Shown here piece by piece: positions 4,995-37,268 of a stretch of 64,000 nt of DNA. A program made the translations under genes and the position numbers. This DNA is from Chiua virens (taxonomy: Eukaryota; Basidiomycota; Agaricomycetes; Boletales; Boletaceae): contig JAHNUO010000011.1 of the NCBI GenBank assembly GCA_019787685.1, positions 682,001-746,000 of the forward strand, in the 5' to 3' direction. Within the stretch, counting starts at the first letter, position 1. Every line of letters starts with the position of its first letter. A model generated the notes under the pieces. That model ran no database searches. It worked only from the letters and a program-made list of their open reading frames with translations, and was not told the origin of the DNA.

Positions 4995-5434
4995 TGAAAC
5001 AACCTAGAACAAAGATTGAACTAGATGTGTAGTAAAAGATGTGAGAGGATGTGGAAGTCCAACCAAAGAGGCGAAAACTCCAAGAGAACTTTGTTAGAGT
5101 CCTCTGGCTTCAATTCATGGGTTTATATACTACATGGATGTCAGAGTTCTAATCTAAGTATGAACTACGTAGATAAGACAGAGAGACATGATTGAATGAT
5201 AAGGTGTGAATCATATGAGTCATAGATAAGACACATAGCCTTGCACAGGTATCTGGTAGGTATAAGTCATGATGAGTCGGAAATGAAAGATAAGAGAATG
5301 AGTCATGTTTGATGCTGTGTTTATGTGGCAGCCAATAGGATATGGTCCTGTGGATAGCCATGACATGAGGCATAAATGTTTAGAAAAGATTGAAAGTATA
5401 ATCCATAGAAGGGTGAAATGTTGAGATCATAACA
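4995..5434 (-). repeat. LTR, family A (5' LTR of copy 1), 440 bp
   Basis: Begins tgaaacaacct and ends taaca (TG...CA) and aligns end to end with the LTRs of the intact chromovirus. A TATA box (tatataaa on the minus strand) lies about 30 nt before the predicted transcript start. Next to the right end the LINE remnant begins. Confidence 0.9.
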
Positions 5435-8400
5435 GTGATCAATCCCATAAACCTCACTACAGCCAACTCAAAATGGAACATTGTGTACCCATTCACCCAC
5501 AATGTCACAAATGCCACCTACACCTGATCTATCCTCCAAGTCTTCATTAACAAAAAGCTATCCATGGAACACTGGAGTGTTGTCCTGATCAAATCCCTGG
5601 ACGTAACAGCCATTGAAATCAGAGCCTGAGAATCATGGGGAAAAATCAGAATATATAATGTGTACAATAATAGAACCCACAGAGACACCCTTGCACTACT
5701 AGAGCACCATGACTCTCCCTAGAATGGTGGACTGATCCTCTTAGGCAACTTTAACTGACATCACTTCTTATGGGACCACCCAAACAACTCCCACCTTTTC
5801 ACTCCATCCAACATCCAAGCAGCATAACCCCTCCTCAACCTAATATCCATGTATAACCTAGACATGGCTCTTCCCACTGGTACCTCAACTTTCTGATCCA
5901 CAGTGACAGGGAGTCTCACACACCCAGACAACATTTTCTGCTTCAAGCATCTCATGGGATCTATCATTAGATGCAAGGCAGATGAACACCTCATGCCCAT
6001 GCAAACTAACCACTTTCCCATTATCTCTACATTCACATTATCACCAGAGTACACTAATTCCCTCCCAGGCACAACTTCAAAGCAACAGACTGGAAAAAAT
6101 TTCTATCTGCTCTAGAAATGCACTTACAAAACCTCCCTCAACCAGAACCACTGACTTCAGTTGACAAGACCCATGAGAAACTAGACAGCATTAACTGTGC
6201 CATTGCAGAATCAGTCCCACACTGCCTATGCAAAGCAAATCCAACAGGCAAAAGTAGAGCACTGGAATGACTACCTGGAGGAGGTAAACATCACCAACAT
6301 ATGGCAGGCTCACAAATACCTCACAGACAAATCATCAGACCACTTTATCTGGAGAATAACAACACTACACCAATTCCCTAACCTCCTACTCCCAGATGAG
6401 CAAACCAACCAGACCAAGAGTGAACTGCTCTATGATGTTTTCTTTAAACCATGCCCAAATGACATCCCAGATTTCTCACACACGCAATACCCAAACCTGG
6501 TTTGTCCCTTCTTCAATATCACCAATGACCAAATCCACTCTGCTATAAAATGGTTATCTCCTTATAAAGCACCCAGCCCTAACAGGGTCTGTAACATGGT
6601 GTACAGTAAAGCAGCTGACATCCTCGTCCCCTATTTAGGCCCTATATTCTGAGCCACATTTAATCTGGGTTTCTACCCAGACGAATGGCAAGTATCCTCA
6701 ACTGTTGTCTTGAGAAAACCCAGGAGACCAGATTACTCACTTTCTAAAGCATACCATCTCATCACTCTGCTAGACACAATGGCAAAGATCCTATTGTTGT
6801 GTGTTGCAGATGACTTCACATACATGGCAGAGCACCAAGCACCATGGCCTCTTACCACCCACTCACTTCAGGGGCAGGGCAGGCTGCTCCACCATTAACT
6901 CCCTTCACCTTCTCACTAAATTCACTTTTGACTCTTGGGCTCACTCTACTGACAATTTCATATCCATGCTCTTCCTTGACATTAAAGCTGCTTTTCCAAG
7001 CATGGTCATAGAAAGACTTATTCACAACATGTGGAAAAAGAGTATCCCAAAAGAATACACAGATTGGTATCAATACCACCTAAAGGACCAGCAAACCATC
7101 CTTAAATTTGACAAGTTCATGTCCTCCCCTTTTCAGATACCCCATTGGGCTTGATCAGGGATGCCCCCTGTCGCCCATCACTTTTCTGTTCTACAATGCC
7201 AACCTTATCAGTCTAGTTGAAGAAAAGAAGGACCAAATAGGATTAGGATTTATCAATGACACCACTTTCACAGCAAGGGATAAATCATATGAAGAGGTAA
7301 ATGAGAAGCTGAGAGAGATTATGGAGGGGGAAAGGGGGGCTCTAAAATGGGGAAAGGACCACTATGCCAATTTCGAACTTGAAAAAACAGCACTTCTCTG
7401 TATCTCATGCTTATGGGCTCCAGACCCTCAACGAAAGGGAAAGTCAATTCCAGTACCCCATTCACCCATTGTTATCCATGGACACTGCATTGAACCCTCA
7501 ACAAGCTACAAATTTCTTGAAATCATCATTAACCATGAACTTCAATTCAAACAACACACTGCTTACACATTATCAAAAGGCATAAAGTATGTACTTGCAT
7601 GCAAAAGAATAACAAAAACATCAAAAGGAATGAAATCAAAAATGATCAAAAAGTTATATGAAGCAGTAGTAATATCAAAAGTTTTGTACAGACTGGACAT
7701 TTGGGGAGGGCACATGTTGGAAAGGGAAGAGGGAAGAAGGACGATGGATGAGGGGCAAGAGGGTTTAGAAAGAAACTAGATTCAATTCAGCACCTTGCCA
7801 TGCTTCATATCTTGGGGGAAATGCACTCAACAGCATCTAATGCCCTCTTTGCTCATGCTGACCTCCTACCGGTACTGGCCCTCATTCACAGATTTTGCAC
7901 TAATGCAACTCTCAGACTCATCACACTACCACTGTCATACCCACTGCACTCCCATATCGTAGCCACCATGTGCCATCACTTGTGACACAAATCTCCTCTG
8001 CATTGTCTGACAAATGCTTTCAACTATGACCCCAGGCTACATGAGACAATCCTACTGGTATGACATAACCTGAAATGGTCCCCAAACATCTGTCTTCACA
8101 TCAAGGAAGAAAAAGAGGTGGCACTACTTTAGGATATCAAAACACTCATGACATATGCCTTTATTCAGACAGATCAGAAATCAATGAAAAATAGGGGAAG
8201 TGGCAGTGCTGAGGTCAGGAGAAAGAAAGGTAACAGAGATGTAGCTAGCAATGGGCACAGCAGAGGACCACATGGTATACATATGAGGGAGAAATTGCAG
8301 GGATGATTTTGGCGGTAGAATTGCTACAAAAGCACAGAGGACCAGTCCAAAAGGTATCCCTGGGACTAGACAACTGAGCTGAATATGTGCAACTGGTGCC

Positions 8401-19427: not shown

Positions 19428-19429
19428 AA

Positions 19430-20158: not shown

Positions 20159-20580
20159 TGAAACAACCTAGAACAACCTAGACTGTTAAAGTGGTAGTGG
20201 TTGATGAAGAGGGGGTTCAGTCCAGTGAAGAGGCAAGAACTCCAAGAGAATTTGTTAGAGCTCTCTGGCTTTGATTCATGGGGTTTATATACTACATGTA
20301 TGTCGGACTTCTAATCTGAGTATAAACTACATAGATAAGCATAGTGTATCCTATTGGATGATAACGTGTGAATAGATATGAGTCATAGATAAGAGTATAG
20401 CCTTGCACTGCTGTGATGAGTCAGTGATAAGGGAAATGAATAGATAGAAGTGTAAGTGTGTGATATTGTGGCGGCCAATAGGGTATGATCCTTTGGACAG
20501 CCTTGACATGAGGTGTTATTCTTAGAAAAAATTGAAAGTACATATAATCCATTAAGGGTTGAAATGTCGAGATTGTAACA
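20159..20580 (-). repeat. Solo LTR, family A, 422 bp
   Basis: tgaaacaacct...gattgtaaca flanked by perfect 5-bp duplications gcatt (20154-20158 and 20581-20585). It splits the DDE_Tnp_4 pseudogene between codons for DIENA and TFNGW. Confidence 0.95.
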
Positions 20581-20715
20581 GCATTCTCAATGTCAGTGTC
20601 ATCAGAGGTCTGCACTGGAAGCTTCAAGCCATCAATGCTTTCAAATGCACCACCAACTTGCTGAGAATGACATTGGACAACAAGATCCAAAAGAGCTTCA
20701 AATTCATCAGCTTTG

Positions 20716-20977
20716 TATGGAAAGCAGGACAACTGTGCTCCCAAAAAAGTAATTCTTGGGCCAAGGGCTTTTCTCTGAAGTCACTTTGAATTAGAAAATA
20801 ATTTCTTGTTTTCGATGCCCATTGACTGAGGGGAATTTTACCTAGGCTCTCTGGATTAAGAAAAACTTTCCAATGCCCATCAACCAGAGACTTTAACCAT
20901 ATGAACTCAGTTTTTTGTGGTCATGTGACCTTTTATTATATATCCCAAAAAACACTCCCAAGCACATATACTGTTAC
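20716..20977. repeat. Left terminal inverted repeat of element X
   Basis: Matches, in inverted orientation, 34294-34205 followed by 27339-27135. Shared landmarks are gctcccaaaaaagtaattct, the agtcactttgaatt block, a run of cttaatc/gattaag and the ggtcatgtgacc palindrome. The left copy lacks about 45 bp present in the right copy. Confidence 0.75.
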
Positions 20978-22339
20978 AAAACTACTGAGCGGTGTATTCA
21001 ATGTACAGTGCTGAGATACAATTGCAAGTGATCAGATGTACCTTAGGCTCCCCCAGTGCCTTTCTCAAATGGCTCCAAATTGAAGCCTGGCCATTTGCAG
21101 AACTTGTTACATACATATATGTTGCTCCAAATTTCCATTCCCAAACAAAGCTCATCCCTGGTTAACATTGCTAGACTGTTGTTAGTGAAAAATTTCATGC
21201 CAAGCTGTTGGCACATACAGGTGAGTTAGGATTTGAGGGTCAGAAAGAACTCTTGTGCTGCCTACATCAGAATGTTAGCAATGCGGAATTGATACTATAA
21301 CAATGTCACATACCTTGGTAATCCAAAATATATACCTGGCCACCTGTGGTTGTGTACTGTACATGTTGGGTGAATGCAAGAAACTTGGCAGTTGTTAGAG
21401 ACTGTGCGACTCAGAGGTTGCCAACTCCAGATCTCTGGAGTTATAGCATCGGATGGGACTTGGCTTCACTGTATGTGGTGCACCCTTGTCACAGTCTGTC
21501 CCTGTATTTTGGATGTGTGGAGAACAGAGGTAGATGTAAGACTCAACACATAAAGTGGAATTGAGCAGAGTAAAGACCATCAAGGTCTTCTTGGAGTGTT
21601 TGGAGTGAGTCATCTAAATAAACTAATATTCAGACTGAAGTTACAATTGAGTAACTACAGTTTATATACTCAGAGGAAACATAATGATTAGTCATGGAGT
21701 AAGGAGATGAATAATATGGAGAAACAGAGAATGACTAATTCTGAGTAAGACAGGAGATCAGGAAACCAGATAACTGGAGGTAAGTCGGGTACTGAGGAAG
21801 CCAGAGCTGTGCTTGTAAGTGAGACATAGGTTATGTACTAAAATAAAAAGGGAAACATATATACATAATGGAAGTCTAGGGTCATGGAGTTGCATCCTGA
21901 GGGAGATTGACCCAGAGTTCATGTCTAAGAGTGTTGGAGTTATATCTGTTAGAGTAGAATCATTCCCACACTGCTTACCTAGTACAGTACTGTAGTATTA
22001 TCTCGTAGCATAGATTTTCATCTTTGTCTGTTATCACGAATAACACCTGCTACCTTGTCATGATGGGCTGTGCGAGCATGCTGTTGACCAATGGGCCATG
22101 TTGACAGGTGTTGCAAATGTTTCTGTTGGCCGACAGGCCATGTCGCAGGGACTATGTTTCATTCCTTGGATCTGGAGTAGGTGCTCCAACCTGCATACAT
22201 TCACCTTTTCACCACCACTTTGCTTCACTTTCATTTCCAACCCACATACATCCATATTCCGACTCTCTTTGATTGATAATCAATACTCACACAGAAATCC
22301 ATTGCTATCACCCATCATGTTGATGATCCTCAACACCAC

Positions 22340-23655
22340 TGTGATGCCATGTCTCAATGAGATCAACTATCTCACCTGGCACGTTCATATGCATGCATTG
22401 CTCATCCGCACAGATCTCTGGGGCATAGTGTTGGGCAAGGAGACTGTACCAGATTTAAACCAGCCACTCCTGCTACCATCGAAGCATTCACCTCACACCA
22501 GCTCAAAGCCGCTGCTGAGATCATGCTATACATCAAAGATAGCCAAATTGTCCATGTCCAGGGTGATGATCCCAAGGTCATCTGGGATGCACTCACTAGC
22601 ATTCACCATACCCATGGCCTCTCCACTGAGCTTGTGGCTATGCACAAGTTCTCGTGCATGGAAAAACATCCTGAGCAGTCCATCACATTGTGGATTGGTG
22701 ATGTGAAGGCCCAGGTGCATCTTGTTAGAGACCGTGCGACTTGGAGGTAGCCAACTCTGGATCTCCAGAGTTGTAACATCGGACGAGACTTGGCTTCACC
22801 ATATGTGGTGCACCCTTGTCACAGTCTGTCCCTATATTTCGGACGTGCGGAGAACGGAGGTAGATATATGACTCAACACATAAAGTGGAGTTGAGCGGAG
22901 TAAAGACCGTCAAGGTCTTACGGAGTGTTCGGAGTGAGTCATACAAATAAACTAATATTCAGACTAAGGGTACACAGTCAGGGTACTACAGTTTATATAC
23001 TCGGAGTGGAATGGAGATTAGTAACGGAGTTGATAAGAACTGAGTAAGACGGAAGATCGGGAAACTACATAGCCGGAGGTAAGTCAGGTACTGAGAAAGC
23101 CGGAGCTGTGCTCGTAAGCGAGACACAGGTTATGTACTAAAATAAAAGGGGAGACATATGTACATAACAGAGATCCGGGGTTGCGGAGTTGCATCCTGAG
23201 GGAGATTGACCCGGAGTTATCGTCTAAGAGAAATGGAGTTATATCCAGAGGAACGGAGAACAGAGCGGTATATGACACATCTCATGAAGGACATCAGAAT
23301 CATGCTCCCAGATCTCCTTATTATCATTGTCCTTACTTCTGGTCTTCCACCTGAGTATGACTCTGTCATTGTCACTCTCGATGCTGTCAAACCCAATGAG
23401 CTTACACTCGAACTCGCCATCTCTCGTCTGCTCAACGAAGAAGAGCGCCACCTCAGTCGTAAACAGCTTGACGATTACAAATTGTTGCTTATCAGGAGTG
23501 ACACTGAAAGCTCCAATGCTGCTTTCACTGCTCGTTCGAGAGCCAACATCACCTGTTTCAAATGTGTAAAGAAGGGTCACTATGCTAAAGACTGTCCGCA
23601 GGAGAAGGAGCACATTAATCTCACCGATGAGGTGGAGCCTGATGCTGCATGGTAA
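22340..23655 (+). pseudogene. Copia-type Gag with CCHC knuckle, interrupted by an LTR
   Basis: The N-terminal part (LNEINYLTWHVHMHALL, RTDLWGIVLG) shifts frame near 22470 and continues as IKDSQIVHVQGDDPKVIWDAL up to 22722. After the nested LTR it resumes at 23283 (LTSGLPPEYDSVIVTLDAV, LTLELAISRLLNEEERHLS) and ends with a perfect zinc knuckle CFKCVKKGHYAKDC and the tail EPDAAW before TAA. This is the UBN2/gag_pre-type Gag of basidiomycete copia elements. Broken here by one frameshift and the 555-bp insertion. Confidence 0.8.
22723..23277 (+). repeat. Solo LTR, family B (copy 2), 555 bp
   Basis: tgttagagaccgtgcgac...gcggtatatgaca with perfect duplication catct (22718-22722 and 23278-23282). 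It interrupts the copia-like gag, so this family inserted both before and after that element arrived. Confidence 0.95.
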
Positions 23656-25526
23656 TCTTTTATTTTTGGACTTTCTATGTATTATTTTTTTGTTGTTTCT
23701 TGTTTACTCATTTGTTCACTTGGACTTGTTCACGATTCAGGGGGTGTGTTAGAGTAGAATCGTTCCTACACTGCTTACCTAATACAGTACTGTAGTATTA
23801 TCTCGTAGCATAGATTTTCATCTTCGTCTGTTATCATGGATAACACCTGCCACCTTGTCATGCCTTGTCAGCCAGTTGCGTCTGCAGCATACAACTTTTC
23901 AACAATATCTGGAGGAACAGAGAATGGAGTGGTACATATATGACAGCAGTCTCAAACCCAATTTCCCCAGGTTCCAGACAAGGGGTTGCTGTGCCATTGT
24001 GAATGAACTTGATGAATTCCGTGTGATCTGGATCATCAGTAAAATCACACATGATAAGTTCTTCTGTGAGGTACATTATGCTGACAGTGCCTGGTTTCGG
24101 GGCTCTGGGTCCTTTAGGCACATTAGGCCTTTTAGCATAGGCACAGATCAGTCCAGTGTCAACAAAGCACAATTGAGAGATGTCAAAAGGAGGAGGGTCA
24201 GTGGCCTTGGAGATGCAGTTATGGATATAGTTGTATGTCGTGTTGAGAAGGGCTTTTGACCAATACAGTACATTGGCTTTGCGGAAGAGCTTAGTTGACT
24301 TGTCAGTGAGTGACAGCTGTGTGTAAGAAGACCCTGGTTCTCTATCATATGGTTACTTGACCACAATTTCTTGATTTGCCCTCAATCCAAGTCCTATGAA
24401 TCTTGGAGGATATACATAGGTTAAGGTATGTGACTTCACAAGTTTTGAACCCACCAACACCAATGTAGTGTTGCCTCAACTTGGCTTTTGGCTTTTTGTA
24501 GCTTTTGTGTAGCTTTTGGATGTAGCATATTCATTTCTTCATAAAAATGTGAGGTATCAGTAGACCAATCATAGCCCATGATTGTGTCTATCACCTGCAA
24601 AAATAATTTTCCAGTTTGGTTTAGCCAATAGGTCACAATATTCCAAATATGTGAATTAGGTTAGTGTTAGCTTTGTTCAAGCTATAGAACAGCTTAATGT
24701 CATAACTTAAGAATGGCTGAACCAATCTTTACAACTGTTTAAGAGGTAATAACCACCACTAATAGCTACACATTGACCTTGACACAATAGCAATTGACAG
24801 TAAAATGAGCAAGATAAAAAATGCCAGCTTCAAGCTGAGGCAACACTATACCAATGAGGTCATCCCATGAGTGGGTGAGATGAATGGTGCCTGTGAAGGG
24901 AATGGCAGTATCAATGCTGAAAGCTGCATTCCCCACAACCAGTTCCAAGATGTTGCAAGTTGATACTGGGAAAACATTGACGGGTTTGAGCTGCTGTTTA
25001 AGCACCACATGACCAAAGCATTAGATTGATGATGAAATATTGCAATATTCACTTGCTTACCTCTCCATACAGTAAGTTTAATGGCAGGGACAGAAATAAA
25101 TGAAGCAAAAATACTCACACCAAGGGGAGTTCTGTGAGTGCCCTTCCTTTTGCTACCATTTTCACAGAATGCTGAAATCTCCAAGGAGATGGTTTCAGCG
25201 AGAGGTGGGCGGTAAGCAACATGGGCCCAATGATCACATTGCATAGCATATTGAAGATGCTGCAGTCTGTAACCTGAGTCAGGAGGCAAAGAGAGGTTTG
25301 CTGGAAGTCAAGACTGCATCAGCGCCAGGCCAGGAGAAGCAGAATGGCTTGCTGGAGACTGAGAGTGTGCCAACACTGATGGTATATCAATGCTGGGTCC
25401 ATGGGTTGGAACTGCTGGAGATGGCATGTTCCCAAGACATGCCAGCCTTGCCAGGAGTCTTGTTAGATGATTGGTGATTGCTACAACAGGAGGGGGGTTT
25501 ATTGAGGCTGGATGGGACGTTGTGAA

Positions 25527-25894
25527 TGAAACAACCTAGAACAAAACTAGACTGTTAAAGTAGTTGGTTGAGTGAAGAGGGGATTCAGTCCAGTGAAGAG
25601 GCAAAAACTCCAAGAGAACTTTGTTAGAGTTCTCTGGCTTCAATTCATGGGGTTTGTATACTACATGGATGTCAGAGTTCTAATCTGAGTCAGAAGGAGT
25701 CATAGACAAGAACATAGCCTTGCACTGCCATGATGAGTCAGTGATAAGGGAAATAAATAGATAGAAGTGTTATTCTGTGATATTGTGGTAGCCAATAGGG
25801 TATGATCCTTTGGGACAGCCTTGACTTGAGGCATTATGGTCAGAAAAGGTTAAAAGTGTAATCCATTAAGGGTTGAAATGTTTGAATCATAACA
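25527..25894 (-). repeat. Solo LTR, family A, internally deleted, 368 bp
   Basis: tgaaacaacct...atcataaca flanked by gtgaa and gtaaa (one mismatch). About 60 bp around the gaactacgtagataag block is missing. Inserted in the alpha-kinase-like gene of element X. Confidence 0.85.
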
Positions 25895-26381
25895 GTAAAT
25901 GGATGAAAGTCACACTGCATGTAAACTCACCACAGGACTGAGCAGCACTGATTGATTGATGGATAGCCTTTGGATCTAGTAGTCATTCTTAAAAAAAGTT
26001 AGTGAAGGTTTGCTGAAATACATACACAATGAACCTTGTGTTCCCCAAACTGTCATTCCAAGCCTGGTCTGGTAATATTGGTAGCAATCTGCACATACAT
26101 ATTTGCTGGGCTTGCTCTGATTGATATCTGTGACATAAAGATACAGTTGACCTGGATGAATGTGGGAGGCTTTACAATTTTTGTGCTGGCAAAGTCTGTC
26201 TCCCTGTGCATATGCATCCTTGGTGAACTGAGTTTTGATATAAGTGACTGAATGGGAATCAGTTGAATGAGACACGAGAGGCTGGTAGTTGAGAACTTAC
26301 TGTGCACTGTGCTTCACAATATATGCTGTTCAAATCTAACACTGGCAGGAGAGCCACACTCTGTGCAGGAGTCTGTCAAGG

Positions 26382-26969
26382 TGTTAGAGACCGTGCAACT
26401 CGGAGGTAGCCAACTCTGGATCTCCAGAGTTGTAGTGTCAGACGGGACTTGGCTTCACCATATGTGGTGCACCCTTGTCACAGTCTGTCCCTATATTTTG
26501 GATGTGCAGAGAACGGAGATCAATGTAAGACTCAACACATAAAGTGGAGTCAAGCAGAGTAGAGACTGTCAAGGTCTTCTCAGAGTGTTCAGAGTGAGTC
26601 ATACAAATAAACTAATATTCAGACTCAAGTTACAGTCAAAGTAACTACAGTTTATATACTCAGAGGAAACATAATGATTAGTCACAGAGTAAGGAGATGA
26701 ATAATATGGAGAAACAGAGAATGACTAATTCTGAGTAAGACGGAAGATTGGGAAACTACATAGCCAGAGGTAAGTCAGGTACTGAGGAAGCTGGAGCTGT
26801 GCTCATAAGCAAGACACAGGTTATATACTAAAATGAAAAGGGAAACATATATATGTAACAGAAGGTCCAGGGTCGCAGAGTTGCATCCTGAGGTAGATCA
26901 ACCTGGAGTTCATGTCTAAGAGAATCAGAGTTATATCTGGAGGAATGGAGAATGGAGTGGTGTATGACA
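26382..26969 (+). repeat. Solo LTR, family B (copy 3), 588 bp
   Basis: tgttagagaccgtgcaac...ggtgtatgaca with perfect duplication caagg (26377-26381 and 26970-26974). Confidence 0.95.
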
Positions 26970-26974
26970 CAAGG

Positions 26975-27134
26975 CATCAATTGGGCTGAAGGACTCATGA
27001 TTCACCTCGAGGACAACTTCAGGCCAACATGCCAAAGAGCACAATAGTGAGTGAAATACCCTTTTCAGACGATGAGGAGGAGGAGACCAACACTAGTCTT
27101 TGATCAATGGTCTATGCTATCTACTATGACAAGC
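26975..27134. other. Element X interval between LTR and right inverted repeat
   Basis: Short stretch beginning with the rest of the LTR target site. A plus-strand ORF fragment starting MPKSTIVSEIPFSDDEEEE is visible but has no support as a gene. It may include the promoter or first exon of the kinase-like gene. Confidence 0.35.
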
Positions 27135-28053
27135 TTCATGACAGTATTTGTACTTGGTGTTTCTTGGGACATATAATAAAAGGTCACATGACCAAAAAAA
27201 TGAGTTTATATGGTTGAAGTCTCTGGTCGATGGGTGTTGGAAAGTTTTTCTTAATCTGGAGTGCATAGGTAAAATTTCCCTTGGTCAATAGGCATTGGAA
27301 ATGAGAAATTATTTTCCAATTCAAAGTGACTGGGGTGTTTGTCATATACTGCTCCATTCTCCATTCCTCTGGATATAACTCTGACTCTCTTAGACATGAA
27401 CTCCGGGTTGATCTACCTCAGGACACAACTCCATGACCCCAGACCTCCGTTATGTATATATGTTTCCTCTTTTTGTTTAGTACATAAACCTGTGTCTCAC
27501 TTACAAGCACAGCTCTGGCTTCCTCAGTACCCAATTACCTCCAGTTATCTAGTTTCCTGATCTCCAGTCTTACTCAGAATTAGTCATTCTCAATTTCTCC
27601 ATATTATTCATCTCCTTGCTCTGTGACTAATCATTCTGTTTCCTCCAAGTATATGTATAAACCATAGTCACTTCAATTGTAACTTCAGTCTGAATATTAG
27701 TTTATTTGTATGACTCACTCCAAACACTCTGAGAAGACCTTGACAGTCTTTACTCCACTCAACTTCACTTTATGTGTTGAGTCTTACATCGACCTCCATT
27801 CTCTGCATGTCCAAAATCCAGGGACAGATTGTGACAAGGGTGCACCACATACAGTGAAGCCAAGTCCCATCCAATGCTGGAGATCCAGAGTTAGGGAACT
27901 GCATGGGTGAACCCGTGGGTATCCTGGTGCCTACCTGTACCTGTACCCACACCAGGTACAGACCCGTGGGAATGGGTACAGGTATGGGTATGGGTTGACC
28001 TGTAGGTTGCCTGTCAAATGTAGCAAGACAAAGGGAAAGAGTGATAACAATGT

Positions 28054-28822
28054 TGTTACAATTTCTTTCTTTTCTTCACTTGTACTACTTTACTCTGCTC
28101 AATACCTAGGTATCCTCGTATGTTCATCCATACTTCATCCCTTTTCACCTTTACATAACCAACATCAGCATCACCTGATTGCTTACTCTTTTCATTTCAT
28201 GTCATCATCCAATGGCATTACACTTAGTCATTTCATCTTCATCATCATCCGATGCCTGTGTATTGTCTATTGTCTCCTTTTGGCCTTTTACCCTTCTGCT
28301 CTTCTTGGTCACTCCTTTTGGACACTTGTCATTTCACCTTCATCATTGTCTGATGCCTGTGCATTGTGCATTGTCTCCTTTTGGCCTTTTACCTTTCCGC
28401 TCTTCTTGGCCACTCCTTTTGGACACTTGGTCTGTGCACGATCCTCATAGTATAAATACCTGCAGCGATACTCTCTTGTACCCTAGTCTTGATCTCCACA
28501 ATCTACCTGAGTATTACTGCTCCACTCAGGAACACCCCTGTGATCCCTCAACTCCTTGACCCTTGACCTTAGGCCAATGCCTAAGTACCATCTCGATCAC
28601 AAGAGGAAGCCCTTGGTCCTTCAGGTATAGACTCCCAACAGGACACTCTCAGGAACCCCTGAGTTCTAACTCATCTCTGCAGTTGGCAACACGCTAACAG
28701 CAGTCCTCCTTGAACTCTTACAGCACACCACATATCAAGTGGTGATTGTTCGAGTTATTGCAGCCACTTGGTACTTAGTGCTTTTGCAGCTATGCTAGTT
28801 CCTACCCAGAGCTATTGTAACA
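28054..28822 (-). repeat. Solo LTR, family C, reverse orientation, 769 bp
   Basis: tgttacaatttcttt...gctattgtaaca is the reverse complement of the family-C copies at 42235-42963 and 44192-44916. Flanks aatgt and gacgt could be a target duplication changed by two transitions. Confidence 0.85.
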
Positions 28823-28870
28823 GACGTGACAACCACGATAACACAGTTATCATGTCATCATCATCAGGTA

Positions 28871-30445
28871 CAGTGGCTCAAACAACTGTCCCAATGTTTG
28901 CATGTTTTTCACTAAACACAATAAAACACGGTAACCACTAAACCTTACCCAGACCTGTGGGAATATGAAATATAGTACCTACTCCTGGCTTTCTATTGGA
29001 CCAAGGGTCAAAGGATTTGAATAAGATTTGATGAAATAAAATGATCACTCATTGGGACAGTTCTTTGACTTTAAGTTTGGATTACATATATCAGACCCTA
29101 ACATGTTGGAAAGTACTTACATACATTTGATAATGGTTCTATCATGTTATATTTATGTAACTATCATCAGCTAGCACCATATAAACCCCACTATACCATA
29201 GTAACTTCCCTATCATCATTATGCAACCTATCTCCAGCTCTTAAGGGACAATAATGTCTCTTTCCCTTTCCTCAAGCTTTCTTCCAGGAAAATAACCTCT
29301 GAAACTGGTCTGGGCAAGTCTATGGTGTCTAGGGTCCTTCAAGAAATCCAGCTAGACAAGACTAAATATCTTGGTGGTCACCCTTTAAAGTTTTCATTTA
29401 CCAGCAAAAGGGCTATTGTACAATAGATCATTACTGGCAAGGCCAAAAATGCTGTTCAGCTCACTATACTTATCAATACCATTATTGATACTCCTCTCTA
29501 CCATCAGATAGCCAGAAATACCCTCAGGGAAGCCTCTTTGAAAGCTGTGGTAGAGAACAAAAACTTCTTCTCTTCAAGAGTCACAAGAAAGGATGGTTGG
29601 CCTATGCTTTCAAATACTAGCATTGGACTGTGGAGGGTGGGAAAAGGGTCATATAGTTAAATGAGACTAAAGTCAATAGGATTGGGTCATATAAACAAGA
29701 GTATGTGTGGAAAAAGGCAGGAGAGTAGTTGATTGCTAGAGGTACAGTCAAGCATAGAGGAGGCTATGGGCCTATATAGGATGGAATGGAGTGGGAGTTT
29801 AGAGTGAGATGTACAGAAGGATAAATGCTGAGCAGTATGTGACAATTTCATAGCAGGGGTTTCTGGAAAACATCAAAGAATTTTAAATTTCAGAAGGTAA
29901 TATCATTTTTCAATAAGATAATGATCCCAAGCATACCTCTAAAAGAATTCAGACCTGGGTCGGGGATCAAGAGATTGGATCTTTAGATTGGCCTGCACAG
30001 TCTCTAAACCTCACTTCCTTTGAACATACCTGAAATCATCTCAAAAAATGACTTTTAGCTTATAAAAGTGCCCCTAAAGGAGTTTATCATTTATAGGAGA
30101 GGTTAGTAGAGGAGTGGGGAATATTTGTGCAGAATAGCATTAGAAATGGATTAAAAGCATGCATAGAAGGCTTGAAGTTGTTATCAAGGCAAAAGGAGGT
30201 CATACCAAATATTAAATACTTATATTTATATAAAGTCAAAAAACTGTCCCAATGAGTGATCATTTTGAAATGATTGCCATTTCATCAAATCTTATTCAAA
30301 TTCTTTGACCCTTGGTCCAATAGAAAGCCAGGAGTAGGTACTATATTTCATATTCCCACAGGTCTGGGTAAGGTTTAGTGGTTACCATGTTTTATCATGT
30401 TTAGTGAAAAACATGCAAACATTGGGACAGTTGTTTGAGCCACTC
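28871..30445 (+). mobile_element. Tc1/mariner-like element, copy 3, full length but decayed
   Basis: Ends cagtggctcaaacaactg and its inverse, flanked by TA (28869-28870 and 30446-30447). Inverted repeats of about 210 bp (28871-29080 and 30232-30445) share the gtcccaatgagtgatcat inner block and the outer cagtggctc tip. Distinct subfamily from copies 1 and 2. Confidence 0.85.
29240..30220 (+). pseudogene. Tc1-like transposase remnant (copy 3)
   Basis: Many stops and shifts. Recognisable pieces are IIFQ*DNDPKHTSKRIQTW with the second catalytic D, then WPAQSLNLTSFEHTWNHLKK where the third acidic residue is still glutamate, and AYKSAPKGVYHL near the end. The first catalytic motif is not readable. 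Clearly dead and older than the other two Tc1-like copies. Confidence 0.75.
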
Positions 30446-30772
30446 TAGGATGAGGTAAGAGATAATGTGAAGGTAATGATGACATGATGACCATGTTATC
30501 ATGGTCATCGCATTGTTGTCATCATCAGGCAAGGCAAGAAGTGAGGTGAGGGAAGAGCCAGGAAGAGAGGTAAAGCAAGGGCAAAGGTGACGAAGATGAG
30601 GGCAAGGGTGACAACAATGTGACAACCACATTATAGTGGTTATCACATCATCATCATCATCATCATCATCATCATTGTCGTCAGGCAAGGTAAGGGATGA
30701 GGTGAAGCAAAGGTGATGATGACAAGGGTGACAAGGGTGAGAGCAATGAGGGCAACAATGACATGATAACTG

Positions 30773-30917
30773 TATAGAAAATGATATCTGCAGAGGGCCT
30801 AGCCTGTAGAGTACTTGAGTCACTAAAGAAAAAGGACTACTGTACTCTAGGTGTGATGTACCTATGATTAGGTAAGCATGTGGCTGTACTACCACAGCTC
30901 AAATGAGATTTACAACA
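30773..30917 (-). repeat. 3' LTR of the short-LTR element, 145 bp
   Basis: tatagaaaatgatatctgc...gagatttacaaca on the plus strand; nearly identical to 33124-33269. Confidence 0.85.
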
Positions 30918-32147
30918 CTCCCCCTCAAGTGAGGTGTGGTAGTGAAGTAGAAATGGAAACTAAATAATAAATGGATATTAAAAAATACCTGTGTGTCTCC
31001 AAATCCATCTCCTATGGTGAATCCCTGAGTCTGTGGTGATGCAACTTCATTGTGACATGGTGCACTTGAGTGGTTACCCAATATGGTAAGTTGTGGCTTG
31101 GCTAATGCCTTTGTGGCTGGCTGATGTGCACGATCATCTGTGCTCAATTCCCGGTGCGTCCTGTTGCTCTCAGGTGAGTACCATCCACTTCCTGACTCCT
31201 TTAGGATGTGTGTGACACATTCGATGTGTCTGGATTGGTCTTGATGAGACCATATTGCAAGGTGAGCATTCTTGTCTCCTCGTCTTTGGCTAACTCATTT
31301 AGGTCGCATTTTTAGTCTTCCTTGACAATGCGGTGGGTTCGGATGGTGATGAGGTCATTTGGAGTGTTTGGGTGGTCGCTTGGATGGTGCTGGTACATCT
31401 GATTCGGTCTTGTCTTTATCCCATTCGGACTGACTGTCATGTCCAGCTAGCAGACATGTTTCGACTTGTTTCGAGTCACAGCATCCTCTGCTCATTGCAC
31501 CATCGATTGGGGACCTTATCCCATCATATCTGAGTCAGTTCAATGCATTCTGGCACTGCGCTTTGTGGCCGTCGCTCCCCAATCTCATCTGGACCTCCTT
31601 CTGGCTTCCTAGCCCTCTATATTGATGTAGCAGCTTTGTTTCAATGACAGGCTCATTGCAGCTGTTGCTGGGGTGTGTCCAGTCATATTCAAGTCAATTC
31701 GCACCGTTTTGGCGCTGCACTTTGCACTCAATCTAGATTGACTTCAATTTCCCCCCCTCTAGACATCCTGGCCCTTCAACTCAACTCGACAACTTCATTT
31801 CAATGCCGGATGCTATCGTCTCACATTCAGGGTGATCTGGGAAGTCCCTGGGACCGTCTTGTGAGTGTGCTTCGCTTGTAGCATGCACTTTATCCTCTAA
31901 CTTGCCCTTTTCGCCTCTAGCCCCTCCTGGCTCTGGATTTCAGTGTAGCGGCTTCATTCTCTTGAAGTGCTCATCTCCGTCACTCCTAGGGCATTCCATA
32001 GGACTTTGGTAAGTCTTTCCTGCAGCTGGTTCGCTGCCCGGGTCATCTGGAGGTCTTGGGCTTCCTCTGAGTGAGTTTTTTCCCTCCTTCTGTTTCGACC
32101 ATTCCTTGACGCACTCTGTAGCTTTCAACAGTTCTTCTGGCCTGTTC

Positions 32148-32843
32148 CTAGCGCTCTCGATGTGCCCCTGATGCTGGCAACGCATCTGCTTCAGGTCCAG
32201 TGCCCTGAGCTCCACTGGTTGTCAACATCTGCCTCCCCTCCTCAAGCTTGGAGCTCTGGGGATTGCTCGTTGCAACTTGTGCTTGGTCTGGGAGCCTATC
32301 CTTTGGTAGGGCTAGGTCTTGGTGACCTTTAGGTGAGTCCCTGTTAACCGTTCTGTCATACTGATCATTTTCGTCATCAGTCAGCTTCAATTGCTCATGT
32401 GGCATCTCGCCTGGGCTCTGCTCCTCGATCGATGTCATCTGCGACTCCTCAACACTCTCCAGTTCATCTGGAGGCTTCCCAGCATTCCCTGGTCGACTCT
32501 CGTTGTCTCTGTCGTCAGCTGTCATTGATTGTCTGTGCATCATCGTGCTCAGGCTCTCTCCCTCAATTGATGTCATTTGTGATGTTCTGGGGGTCTCCAC
32601 CTTGTCCTGTGTACCTGTACACCTCTCTTCAACATTCCCATACATGTCCAAGTCTGCATTTGTGCCTGCAATGCTCTTGGCTCGCTCAATTTCATGTTCA
32701 TTCCCCATATAGGGGGTTTTCGACTCCTTTTCAGATCTTTCACACTTGTTTGTGGCTTCAGTGGCTGCACATGCTGTCTCATAGGGTATTGTAGGACTTC
32801 CAAATTGATTTATTAGGTAGTCATAGATGTTATGTGCCGTCAT
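32148..32843 (-). CDS. Hydrophilic 231-codon ORF inside the short-LTR element
   Basis: Starts MTAHNIYDYLINQFGSPTIP, reminiscent of the copia Gag segment after the N-terminal domain, then becomes highly charged low-complexity sequence with repeated MTSIEGES / MTSIEEQS motifs and many E, D, S and T residues. No zinc knuckle or enzyme motif is seen. The frame is interrupted from the upstream SNWSEWHEAI region. Either a Gag variant or a decaying frame; function not assignable. Confidence 0.4.
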   Translation of the reverse strand: MTAHNIYDYLINQFGSPTIPYETACAATEATNKCERSEKESKTPYMGNEHEIERAKSIAGTNADLDMYGNVEERCTGTQDKVETPRTSQMTSIEGESLSTMMHRQSMTADDRDNESRPGNAGKPPDELESVEESQMTSIEEQSPGEMPHEQLKLTDDENDQYDRTVNRDSPKGHQDLALPKDRLPDQAQVATSNPQSSKLEEGRQMLTTSGAQGTGPEADALPASGAHRER

Positions 32844-33106
32844 AAGGTGAAGTATTGCCCCAAGAATTGAATCAGGTGATTTCTGAAGTCAAAATGAACT
32901 TCATTATGGTTTTGAGTTGTCGGTTGGGGTTCATGACAGTTCCCGTGAGGTATTCTGAGAGACTGTCTTCGTGAATCACTTGAATAATGGCTTCATGCCA
33001 TTCCGACCAATTACTACCATCCGTTTTGAGAGTAGGCGTGTCAAACTCCATTGGGTAGGACTTTCTTGGGACTTGGTAGCTTAAGTGACTGTAAGCTGCT
33101 GGGCAA

Positions 33107-33123
33107 GAGCAGGGCTCATAACC
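33107..33123 (-). other. PBS complementary to the initiator tRNA-Met anticodon arm
   Basis: Plus-strand gagcagggctcataacc directly abuts the 5' LTR. It resembles the anticodon arm of eukaryotic initiator tRNA-Met (yeast GCGCAGGGCUCAUAACC) with one difference. The element RNA therefore carries its complement. Drosophila copia uses the same half-tRNA priming within the anticodon loop. Confidence 0.75.
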
Positions 33124-33269
33124 TATAGAAAAGTGGTATCTGCAGAGGGCCTAACCTGTAGAGTACTTGAGTCACTAAAGAAAAAGGACTACTGTACTCT
33201 AGGTGTGATGTACCTATGACTAGGTAAGCATGTGGCTGTACTACCACAGCTCAAACGAGATTTACAACA
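33124..33269 (-). repeat. 5' LTR of the short-LTR element, 146 bp
   Basis: Direct repeat of 30773-30917; ends gatttacaaca next to the duplicated target aactg. Confidence 0.85.
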
Positions 33270-34300
33270 AACTGCTATAATGTGGTTATCGTGTTGTTGT
33301 TGTTGTTGTCAGGCAAGATGAGGGATGAGGTGAGGCAAAGGTAATGATGACGAGGGTGACAATGATGTGATAACCACTATAATGCAGTTATTGCATCGTC
33401 ATTGTCGTCAGGTGAGGTGAGAGGTGAGGTGAAGTGAAGGTGATGATGACATGGTAACTGCTTAATGCAGTTATCATTGTTGTCGTTGTCAAGCAGGGTG
33501 AGGGGTGAGGTGAGGTAGAGGCAATGATGATGAGGGCAAGAGCAACAAGGGCAACAGGGTAAAGTGAGGGATGAGGTAAGGTGAAGGCAATGTACAACAT
33601 GGTAACTGCTATAACATGGTTATCACGTTGTTGTTGTTGTTGTCATTGTCAAGCAAGGTAAGGTAATAAAGGCGAAGACAAGGGCAACAAGGAAAAGAGC
33701 AATGAGGGAAAGAGAGAGAGCAATGAGGGCAACAACAATGTGACAACCGCATTATAGCGGTTATCACGTTGTCGTCATCATCATCATCATCATTATCAGG
33801 CAAAGGAGGGTGAGACACAAGGTGAGGGCAACAAGGGAAAGATTGATGAGGTGAGGGAGAGGCAAGGCAAGGTGAGATGAAGTGAGGTGAAGGCAGTGAC
33901 GAGGGCTAGAGCGACAACAATGACATGACAACCACATTATAGCAGTTATTGCGTTGTTGTTGTCATTGTTGTCAGGCAAGGTGAGAGCTAGGCAAGGCAA
34001 GGGTGAGGTGAGAGTGACCATGAGAGTGAGTTTGTACTCGCATATGCACATGAGGGTCAGAGCAGTGGTGAACACAGGACGAGTAAGGGTAAGGGAAGGG
34101 AAGTGGCATTGCCACATCATGTGTCACACATACCCATAGCTATACCCGTGCTATTCCCTATCTGGAGTTGGCAACCTCCAAGTCACACAGTCTCTAACAG
34201 TGTTCAAAGTCCACCCGAGGGACATATTCTTTTGGAGAAAAGCCCTCAGCCCGAGAATTACTTTTTTGGGAGCATGGTTGTCCTGCTTTCCATAGCTTTG

Positions 34301-35204: not shown

Positions 35205-37268
35205 ATGCCTCGCATATCAGAAAAAAAGGAGCTGTTGCAAGATATTGACAAATTAGAATTTAAAGTGCTGGTATAGTGATTAGGAAACGTACAGCATTGC
35301 ATGGAAGAAGACAAGGACTTGGATAAGATCGATGAGTTGAATGATGATGAATTGGAGATCCTTCTGCTCAATAACCCTATTTCCCTGCTCATCTTCTCTG
35401 ATCTTGAATCCAATGACGAACCTGAGTCCGAGTCAGGATTGACCTACTCAATGGACAGAAGAGAGTCGACTTACCAGCAACTACTATGTCAAATCTGTGT
35501 GCTCCGTGACAAAGTCAGAGAGGCCTGCATTATCAACCAGATAGCTAAACCAGTGTTGAAGGCATCTCAGCTGCATCTTCTGGAGCATTTTGCAGAATTC
35601 TGACCACATCTCTTTCACATGAAAGCTTGTGTCGATCCCAAAATATTTGATTGTATCCTAGATCACATTAGTGGCCACCCAGTCTTCACTTCAAACTCAA
35701 ATTGCCCTTAACTTCCAGTTGCAGTTCAGCTTGTCATCTTCCTTTATTGCCTAGGGCACTACAGAAACTCTGCAGCACTAGAATACATAGCACAGTGGGC
35801 GGGAATTGGCACTGGAACCATGGTGAATTGCATGGAACACACTATGCTTGCCATCTTGGACCAACATGATCAATTCGTGAAGGTTCCCACCACAGACTCC
35901 ATCAATGTGGAACTGGCATGGAGGTTCATTGCAATGAAATCTTGCGAAGCATGGAGGGGGGGATTTTTGCGGCCAATGGGACAACTATAAATTTGTTTCA
36001 AAAACCCTCACTTTATGGCGAGACATACTACGATAGAAAAATGAATTATTCATTGAATTGTCAGGTAGAAGTTCTCATACCTGAGTTCACTTGATGGCTG
36101 ACATGTTACAGCTTACTGTCATGCTGCACAACCTCCTTGTGGTTGATTACGGTTTGGGACACCCAGGAAGTGTGCATGACACTTATGCATTTCAAGGGAC
36201 AGATCTTGCCCAAGATCCAGATGGCTTGATCCCAGAGGGCCACTGGATCTGGGCAGACAGTGCTTACCCAACACAGCCATGGTGTGTTGTCCCTTTTAAA
36301 GCCACGCGAACAGAGCTGTTGTCGCAACCACAGAAGGTTTATAATTGATACCTGTCAAAGGTCAGTGACCACAGTTTCATAGTGTCAGTGTGCTACAATC
36401 TGTCTCAGGTGCACGTGTGTGTGGAGCATGCATTTGCAGCCCTGAAAGGCAGGTTGCAATCACTTCATGATCTTTGCATGCACATCTGTTAGAGACCATG
36501 CGACTCGGAGGTAGCCAACTCTGGATCTCCAGAGTTGTAGCATTGGACGGGACTTGGCTTCACTGTATGTGGTGCGCCCTTGTCACAGTCTGTCCCTATA
36601 TTTCGGACATACGGAGAACAGAGGTAGTTATAAGACTCAACACATAAAGTGGAGTCGAGCGGAATAAAGACCATCAAGGTCTTATGGAGTGTTTGGAGTG
36701 AGTCATACAAATAAACTAATATTCAGACTAAGGGTACACAGTCAGGGTACTGCAGTTTATATACTCGGAGTGGAATGGAGATTAGTAACAGAGTTGGTAA
36801 GAAACTGAGTAAGATGGGAGATCAGGAAACTACATAGCTGGAGGTAAGTCGGGTACTGAGAAAGCCAGAGCTGTGCTCGTAAGTGAGACACAGGTTATGT
36901 ACTAAAATGAAAGAGGAAACATATATATGTAATGGAAGTCCAGGATCACAGAGTTGTGTCCTGAGGGTGATCAACCCGGAGTTCACGTCTAAGAAATCTG
37001 GAGTTATATCCAGAGGAACAGGGAATGGAGCAGTATATGACAACATCCAGACACCCAATGACCTAACCTATGCTTTGCACTGGTTCAGTCCTGCATCGTC
37101 ATGCACAATATGATTGTGCAATTTGAGGAGATGCTTGGGTTGCAGTCATCAATGGATTGGGCACATGAAGAGGTCCATGAGGGGGAGAACAACTATCAGG
37201 TTGACCCTACTGCGCCTGTAGTGGTGATGGTCCCAGATGGGACACCAGGACAACAGTTGCATCAGTAA
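35205..37268 (+). pseudogene. DDE_Tnp_4 transposase of the second Harbinger-like element
   Basis: Reads MPRISEKKELLQDIDKLE, an acidic region (DKIDELNDDELEILL), VTSNSNC-type central part and QLVIFLYCLGHYRNSAALEY. Then AQWAGIGTGTMVNCMEHTML, SCEAWRGGIFAANGTTINLF (normally a VDGT motif; the first catalytic D is N), LYGETYYDRKMNYSLNCQ, a probable intron ending acag at 36110, VVDYGLGHPGSVHD, HWIWADSAYPTQPW (second D) and VEHAFAALKGRLQSLHDL (E). The C-terminus resumes after the LTR at 37043 with QTPNDLTYALHW and IVMHNMIVQFEE. Several stops; dead. Confidence 0.8.
36487..37042 (+). repeat. Solo LTR, family B (copy 5), 556 bp
   Basis: tgttagagaccatgcgac...gcagtatatgaca with perfect duplication acatc (36482-36486 and 37043-37047), inside the transposase between codons for LCMHI and QTPND. 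Confidence 0.95.

Follow-up and report, generated by a model that had tools for sequence, protein, structure and literature searches.

Pack-MULEs are non-autonomous elements with long inverted repeats and gene sequence inside, and the target site duplications (TSDs) of the MULE type comprise ~8–11 bp. IS3EU elements in general are described as having TA..TA termini, usually 6-bp TSDs and a DDE transposase related to bacterial IS3/IS481 (PMC10045372), and an alpha-kinase gene is reported for all TET-bearing IS3EU families, which are from rust fungi (Kojima 2025, PMC12730594). Here, we analyze a window, i.e., the whole 64-kb stretch under study, of contig C11 (JAHNUO010000011.1) from the 48.3-Mb genome of Chiua virens (Boletales; GCA_019787685.1), in which a first-pass annotation had noticed an alpha-kinase gene enclosed by long inverted repeats. 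This copy is very probably a decayed, internally deleted IS3EU element whose kinase resided beside the transposase in full-length relatives and was kept by selection. The window element is a new and broken representative of a group of transposons that is known but has been little described; the earlier remark that no such element had been described is outdated, given the alpha-kinase genes that Kojima reports in IS3EU. Positions without a contig or locus name refer to the window.

Results

The element spans positions 20716–34294, its tips read TATGGAAAGC..GCTTTCCATA, and the exact 6-bp duplication GCTTTG directly abuts both tips on the outer side (left TSD 20710..20715, right TSD 34295..34300; no strand). 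The outer tips at 20716 and 34294 are inverted over 60 nt with 92% complementarity, and the inner inverted arms comprise 139 nt (20779–20917 and 27193–27331, 86% complementary). The left terminal inverted repeat (TIR; 20716..20984, + strand), with the tip TATGGAAAGCAGGACAACTGTGCTC, is 77% identical to its counterpart, the 304-bp repeat of a sister copy on contig C4. The right TIR is split by a solo long terminal repeat (LTR), itself interrupted, into an inner part (27157..27339, − strand), recognized by inverted-repeat pairing, and an outer part with the tip (34205..34294, − strand), recognized by inverted-repeat pairing and tip search. The block represents a single TIR DNA transposon insertion that duplicated 6 bp of its target, and the bounding repeats and the duplicated GCTTTG are as the first-pass annotation had read them. 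Subtracting five nested insertions leaves a core of ~2.8 kb (summed 2,804 nt) instead of the 3.2 kb given there, because a 383-bp miniature inverted-repeat transposable element (MITE) at 24466–24848 is also inserted.

The core contains an alpha-kinase gene on the − strand, which consists of a first exon with an N-terminal cysteine-rich segment (26063..26239), a second exon (25113..25505), a proximal (24857..25020) and a distal (23951..24465) part of the catalytic exon, and 3′ exons that adjoin the left TIR and comprise the end of the catalytic exon and the C-terminal part (21058..21392). This gene is defective: The distal catalytic part, whose protein sequence is 81% identical to that of the C4 copy, has one in-frame TAA, and of a 763-amino-acid relative we found residues 10–66, 115–227 and 503–757 plus the segment 25020–24857 preceding residue 503, with no counterpart found in the window for residues ~228–453. 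The window exons alone give no alpha-kinase Pfam match. The alpha-kinase-like gene noted earlier is thus present as exons, but its middle is absent and its frame is broken by a stop. The block is also not free of a transposase, as had been stated, for the last 13 codons and the stop of one (FSDDEEEETNTSL*) were read by eye at 27062..27103 on the + strand; the DNA around this remnant is 88% identical to the C4 copy, which retains a longer transposase tail. The window copy no longer contains the body of the transposase or the middle portion of the kinase.

The sister copy (C4:253486–255978; 2,493 bp) has TIRs of 304 bp (98%) and an exact TSD, CGATTC, and aligns with the window copy in three blocks at 84–88% identity. 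Its minus strand codes for the catalytic half of an alpha-kinase, and its plus strand, towards the opposite end, for the tail of another protein, which matches the transposase C-terminus of a complete relative with 56% identity over 50 residues. Because its TIRs are intact and its TSD is exact, the structure seen in the window is not due to chance. The window copy differs from it at 174 positions: Going from C4 to the window, 132 of these are C>T or G>A changes (90 at CpG), compared with 29 differences of the reverse kind (four at CpG) and 13 transversions. The observed/expected CpG ratio is 0.13 for the window element, calculated on a core that still included the MITE and a few LTR bases, 0.98 for the C4 copy, 0.81 for a complete element on C11 and 0.61 for the whole window; such a depletion is probably what prolonged CpG methylation would leave.

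The genes that the window copy lacks are present in two complete relatives, C11:936129–942288 (6,160 bp; TIRs of 93 bp, 98%; TSD GAGATG) and C9:345715–351907 (6,193 bp; TIRs of at least 120 bp, 96%; TSD GAAACG). In both, an alpha-kinase and an integrase-type transposase are divergently transcribed, each gene ending towards one TIR, which is the same opposite layout as in the window, where the kinase lies on the − strand and the transposase tail on the + strand. The C11 relative, a complete element with a transposase, has the tip of the window element (TATGGAAAGCAGG), a common tip being what the first-pass annotation had proposed to look for in an autonomous superfamily; the further copies with the same type of duplication and an alpha-kinase that it had also proposed to seek were found as well, the C4 copy with CGATTC being one example. 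A third relative, C49:69668–91417 (TIRs of ~226 bp, 89%; TSD CCGAAG), carries an alpha-kinase and a transposase tail at opposite ends, and an LTR retroelement, gypsy-like by eye, has inserted into it, as read for all but 9.9 kb of its middle; its tip occurs at only two places genome-wide (up to three mismatches). Comparison with the complete relatives shows that both the window copy and the C4 copy are derivatives formed by internal deletion.

With the C4 kinase frame as query, seven loci (nine matches) were found in the genome, and PF24764, the integrase-core family of the transposase, gave 11 matches, including one that is separated from a kinase by 3.4 kb. Inverted tips with exact 6-bp TSDs enclose five of the seven loci of this kinase family; of the remaining two, the C14 locus has one tip and none was found at the C23 locus. 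No clear free-standing parental host kinase was found among the seven. At L046, inverted repeats of 894 nt (811–1704 and 5278–6167) surround the C23 kinase but have no matching outer duplication, and this related kinase, for which no tips were found, occupies a different locus; the window locus itself was not encountered without its repeats. A PF02816 match at C3:2165459 was rejected as a relative: The kinase exons do not match it at E 0.05, and its surroundings (L047) have no paired tips.

A search of the genome with the tip pattern, allowing up to three mismatches, gave 21 matches, 10 of which were read, and 0 with the reversed control pattern. Insertions of the repeat independent of a partner were seen only as single ends, at L013 and L014 (C14:947088), where duplications of their own were unexamined. 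The end at L013 (4395–4592; C14:325894–326091) is ~200 bp long, has no partner and lies in what by eye is a Helitron-type coding region. A pair of tips at C14:458762 and 474725 was rejected as a 16-kb element, as each flank is an inverted copy of the opposite one, which points to an inverted duplication. The arms of this ~16-kb duplication (L057/L058; C14:458700–459300 and C14:474200–474800) include element-end flanks, and it is either real or an assembly artefact.

At the protein level, the annotated full proteins of the complete relatives match the PF24764 integrase core above the cut-off. The alpha-kinase family PF02816 is matched by profile, and an alpha-kinase was also recovered by fold comparison of a structure model that is weak overall (mean predicted local distance difference test score, pLDDT, 63; predicted template modelling score, pTM, 0.42). 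When four catalytic exons were used as a profile to search PDB sequences, no alpha-kinase was returned, and the one match was Probable dehydratase PflD (E 0.082). The annotated protein P0001 differs from our exon reading near the C-terminus; its residues ~200–340, between the cysteine-rich N-terminus and the kinase domain, form a confidently modelled segment.

From these features we infer that the window element and its relatives belong to the IS3EU superfamily. Their termini are TATGG..CCATA, their TIRs have the lengths given above, and GCTTTG and the duplications of the four further kinase-bearing elements are all exact and 6 bp long. TA..TA termini and, usually, 6-bp TSDs are also found in IS3EU/GingerRoot elements in general, to whose DDE transposase the integrase-core protein of the complete relatives is a candidate counterpart; for these elements, unlike those of C. 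virens, a kinase goes unmentioned (0 occurrences; PMC10045372). The TET-bearing IS3EU elements of rusts likewise have 6-bp TSDs, TAYGG..CCRTA termini, TIRs of more than 30 bp and a transposase and an alpha-kinase in opposite orientation (PMC12730594). They differ in that their TET/JBP gene, placed between transposase and kinase, has no match in the kinase-bearing elements of C. virens (none of the 23 genome matches to PF12851, among the best 25 candidates scored, lies there), in that the kinase of the non-autonomous window copy is broken, and in that the host is a bolete.

A kinase search of protein databases found 88 proteins (84 Boletales, three Ephemerocybe and Candolleomyces), and a transposase search found 381, 120 of which were listed. 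Pairing was examined for 87 of the kinases and, among the 120 listed transposases, for 96; those left out, 24 in number, mostly came from genera without a listed kinase or carried no name. Locus tags only 1–2 apart, on equal-sized contigs, were found for seven of the 249 same-species kinase–transposase pairs, compared with an expectation of 0.27 pairs for tags within 5 if 10,000 genes are assumed to be randomly ordered. No pair has a tag distance of 3–50, one has a distance of 51–500, and equal-sized contigs occur in 17 pairs overall. The adjacent pairs come from six species: C. virens (two), Boletus reticuloceps, Melanogaster broomeanus, Suillus fuscotomentosus, S. lakei and S. luteus.

The later insertions inside the window element comprise three solo LTRs, one solo LTR-like repeat and the MITE. 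The first solo LTR (21393..23945, + strand; TSD GCAGT on both sides) is interrupted by a gag-bearing small LTR element (21947–23862), which was hit in turn by a second solo LTR (~22723–23277). This small element has 116-nt TG..CA terminal repeats (94%) around a Retrotran_gag_2 frame, with no polymerase seen, and resembles gag-only non-autonomous LTR elements. The MITE (24466..24848, no strand), with inverted ends TAGTGTTGCC..GGCAACACTA and ACCAATG on each flank, is not present in the C4 copy. The solo LTR-like repeat (TGAAACAACC..ATAACA; 25527..25894, + strand) is flanked by GTGAA and GTAAA, and a further solo LTR lies at 26382..26969 (+ strand; TSD CAAGG on both sides). The last one (27340..34199, − strand; TSD GTGTT on both sides) is interrupted by ~6.3 kb of other repeats, the limits of which were set by eye. 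In blastn, the C4 and C14 relatives align across the excised junctions in single blocks: The C4 blocks cross the first and last junctions and skip the MITE, and the C14 block (core 1811–2841, 81%) crosses the other two. The solo-LTR family TGTTAGAGAC..TATGACA has at least five hits here (21393, 22723, 26382, 27340–34199 on the minus strand, and 36487), with exact 5-bp duplications for three members. Within the 27340–34199 insertion, an element at 28869–30447 has 169-nt inverted repeats (97% complementary) and is Tc1/mariner-like by eye.

Joining the flanks of the element minus one GCTTTG gives a 107-amino-acid frame containing ...KWPKADEFEALL..., in agreement with the earlier claim that a gene had been interrupted. 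Its identity as a DDE_Tnp_4 gene is unconfirmed: The joined frame has no Pfam match, and the DDE_Tnp_4 match is located at 36085–36348 on the opposite strand. The left flank also holds a solo LTR-like repeat, TGAAAC..TAACA (20159–20580; TSD GCATT), with related repeats near 19428 and at 25527.

Discussion

We propose that a full-length IS3EU element supplies both transposase and kinase and moves by transposase-mediated cut and paste; its insertion makes 6-bp duplications. Interrupted repair inside its copies would delete internal sequence and thereby yield derivatives that are non-autonomous. The window and C4 copies would be of this type and may have been mobilized in trans, as suggested by their shared tips and by duplications of their own. 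The kinase would be an accessory gene that resides in the transposon and is maintained by selection. Our most likely guess at its role is regulation of transposition or of host silencing, and at its target, a host factor for silencing or repair or else the transposase. The window copy would then probably have been silenced by CpG methylation and have become a landing site for LTR elements.

The alternative that survives best, although we consider it unlikely, is that the kinase is a mere passenger of the IS3EU lineage, without a role for the transposon, and persists as a host-beneficial or neutral gene. The derivatives have indeed lost parts of the kinase, and two elements with a PF24764 transposase and exact 6-bp duplications, L048 (1778–7321, on C15; AAGATT) and L050 (2076–7519, on C16; ATAATG), show no detectable kinase. 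Passenger genes may differ between lineages of PF24764 elements. (L048 has other open frames, e.g., one of 217 amino acids at its right end; three that were tested have no Pfam match.) Against a mere passenger stands the proportion of nonsynonymous differences (pN), which lies far below that of synonymous ones (pS) in the kinase exons, as in the transposase exons, of different elements, a rough test of selection as pS is near saturation. Moreover, the pairwise distances of kinases and transposases correlate over the seven adjacent pairs (r 0.78; three of 5,040 permutations are as high), as expected from joint descent, although the descent of the hosts alone could account for part of the correlation.

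Several observations weigh against a kinase kept by selection in an IS3EU element. The saturation of pS is one of them, and the low pN/pS could partly reflect selection that predates the present insertions; L048 and L050 imply that not every such lineage needs a kinase. When the C9 element is compared with the C11 element, conservation is lower in the kinase (47% identity) than in the transposase core (77–87%), although one transposase part is at 37%. Two of the seven adjacent pairs are the C9 and C11 elements, which were read as DNA, and the other five rest on locus-tag numbers and contig sizes. Domain detection was uneven: The C9 transposase is absent from the 11 PF24764 matches and was found by protein similarity, the C4 kinase frame has no Pfam match while annotated full proteins pass, and single exons stay under the Pfam cut-offs (16.1 of 21.3 bits for the L043 kinase exon, 25.4 of 26 for a transposase exon). 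Finally, the window copy has kept only 13 transposase codons, and the assignment to IS3EU draws on the termini, the length of the TSDs, the arrangement of the genes and the integrase-core domain and not on a transposase tree.

Far less probable is the capture proposed in the first-pass annotation, according to which a non-autonomous element once took up a host alpha-kinase as passive cargo in the manner of a Pack-MULE. By itself the window copy would fit, being non-autonomous with long inverted repeats, a kinase gene inside and almost no transposase, and its description as a DNA transposon of that build enclosing alpha-kinase sequence is supported. Capture is largely refuted, however, by the C11 and C9 elements, in which kinase and transposase reside side by side in the same layout; the window kinase is a resident gene that remained when internal sequence was deleted. 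The transposase remnant argues in the same direction, as do the 6-bp TSDs of all five kinase-bearing elements with both tips read and the recurrence of the pairing in six Boletales species (by adjacent locus tags) and in rusts (PMC12730594). That the two terminal repeats are independent solo ends facing each other around a host kinase has next to no probability: Single ends do occur, e.g., at L013 (C14:326091) and L014, but an identical 6-bp duplication lies outside both ends, and the C4 copy holds the same kinase sequence (84–88%) between intact 304-bp repeats.

If the kinase is a resident gene of IS3EU elements, as we favor, the expansion of alpha-kinases in basidiomycetes can be viewed anew. 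The family is highly expanded in rusts and absent in Microbotryomycetes according to one study, in whose PF02816 table row the numbers 79 and 39 stand in two columns taken to be rusts (PMC4469406); two others include one rust alpha-kinase gene among genes under diversifying selection (PMC4150398) and the family in a table of Pfam domains (PMC5295586). In the open-access literature we found no link between this expansion and IS3EU. The earlier idea that kinase-bearing transposons explain part of the expansion is strengthened, with complete elements, not non-autonomous ones, as its likely source. We tentatively suggest, as a possibility of nearly balanced prospects, that the expanded basidiomycete alpha-kinases are mostly IS3EU genes and that the kinase is a transposon regulator, perhaps one that disarms host silencing. 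The latter is drawn by analogy with fungal transposons that encode TET/JBP enzymes, which are proposed to allow escape from methylation-based silencing; these, too, are transposons with an enzyme gene, but with another enzyme and another transposase, and their Zisupton and Dileera examples make 8-bp TSDs. If this is true, the alpha-kinase counts of rusts describe mobile elements and not host signalling. A protein kinase retained by an element that moves by cut and paste would also be an accessory protein of an unusual type.

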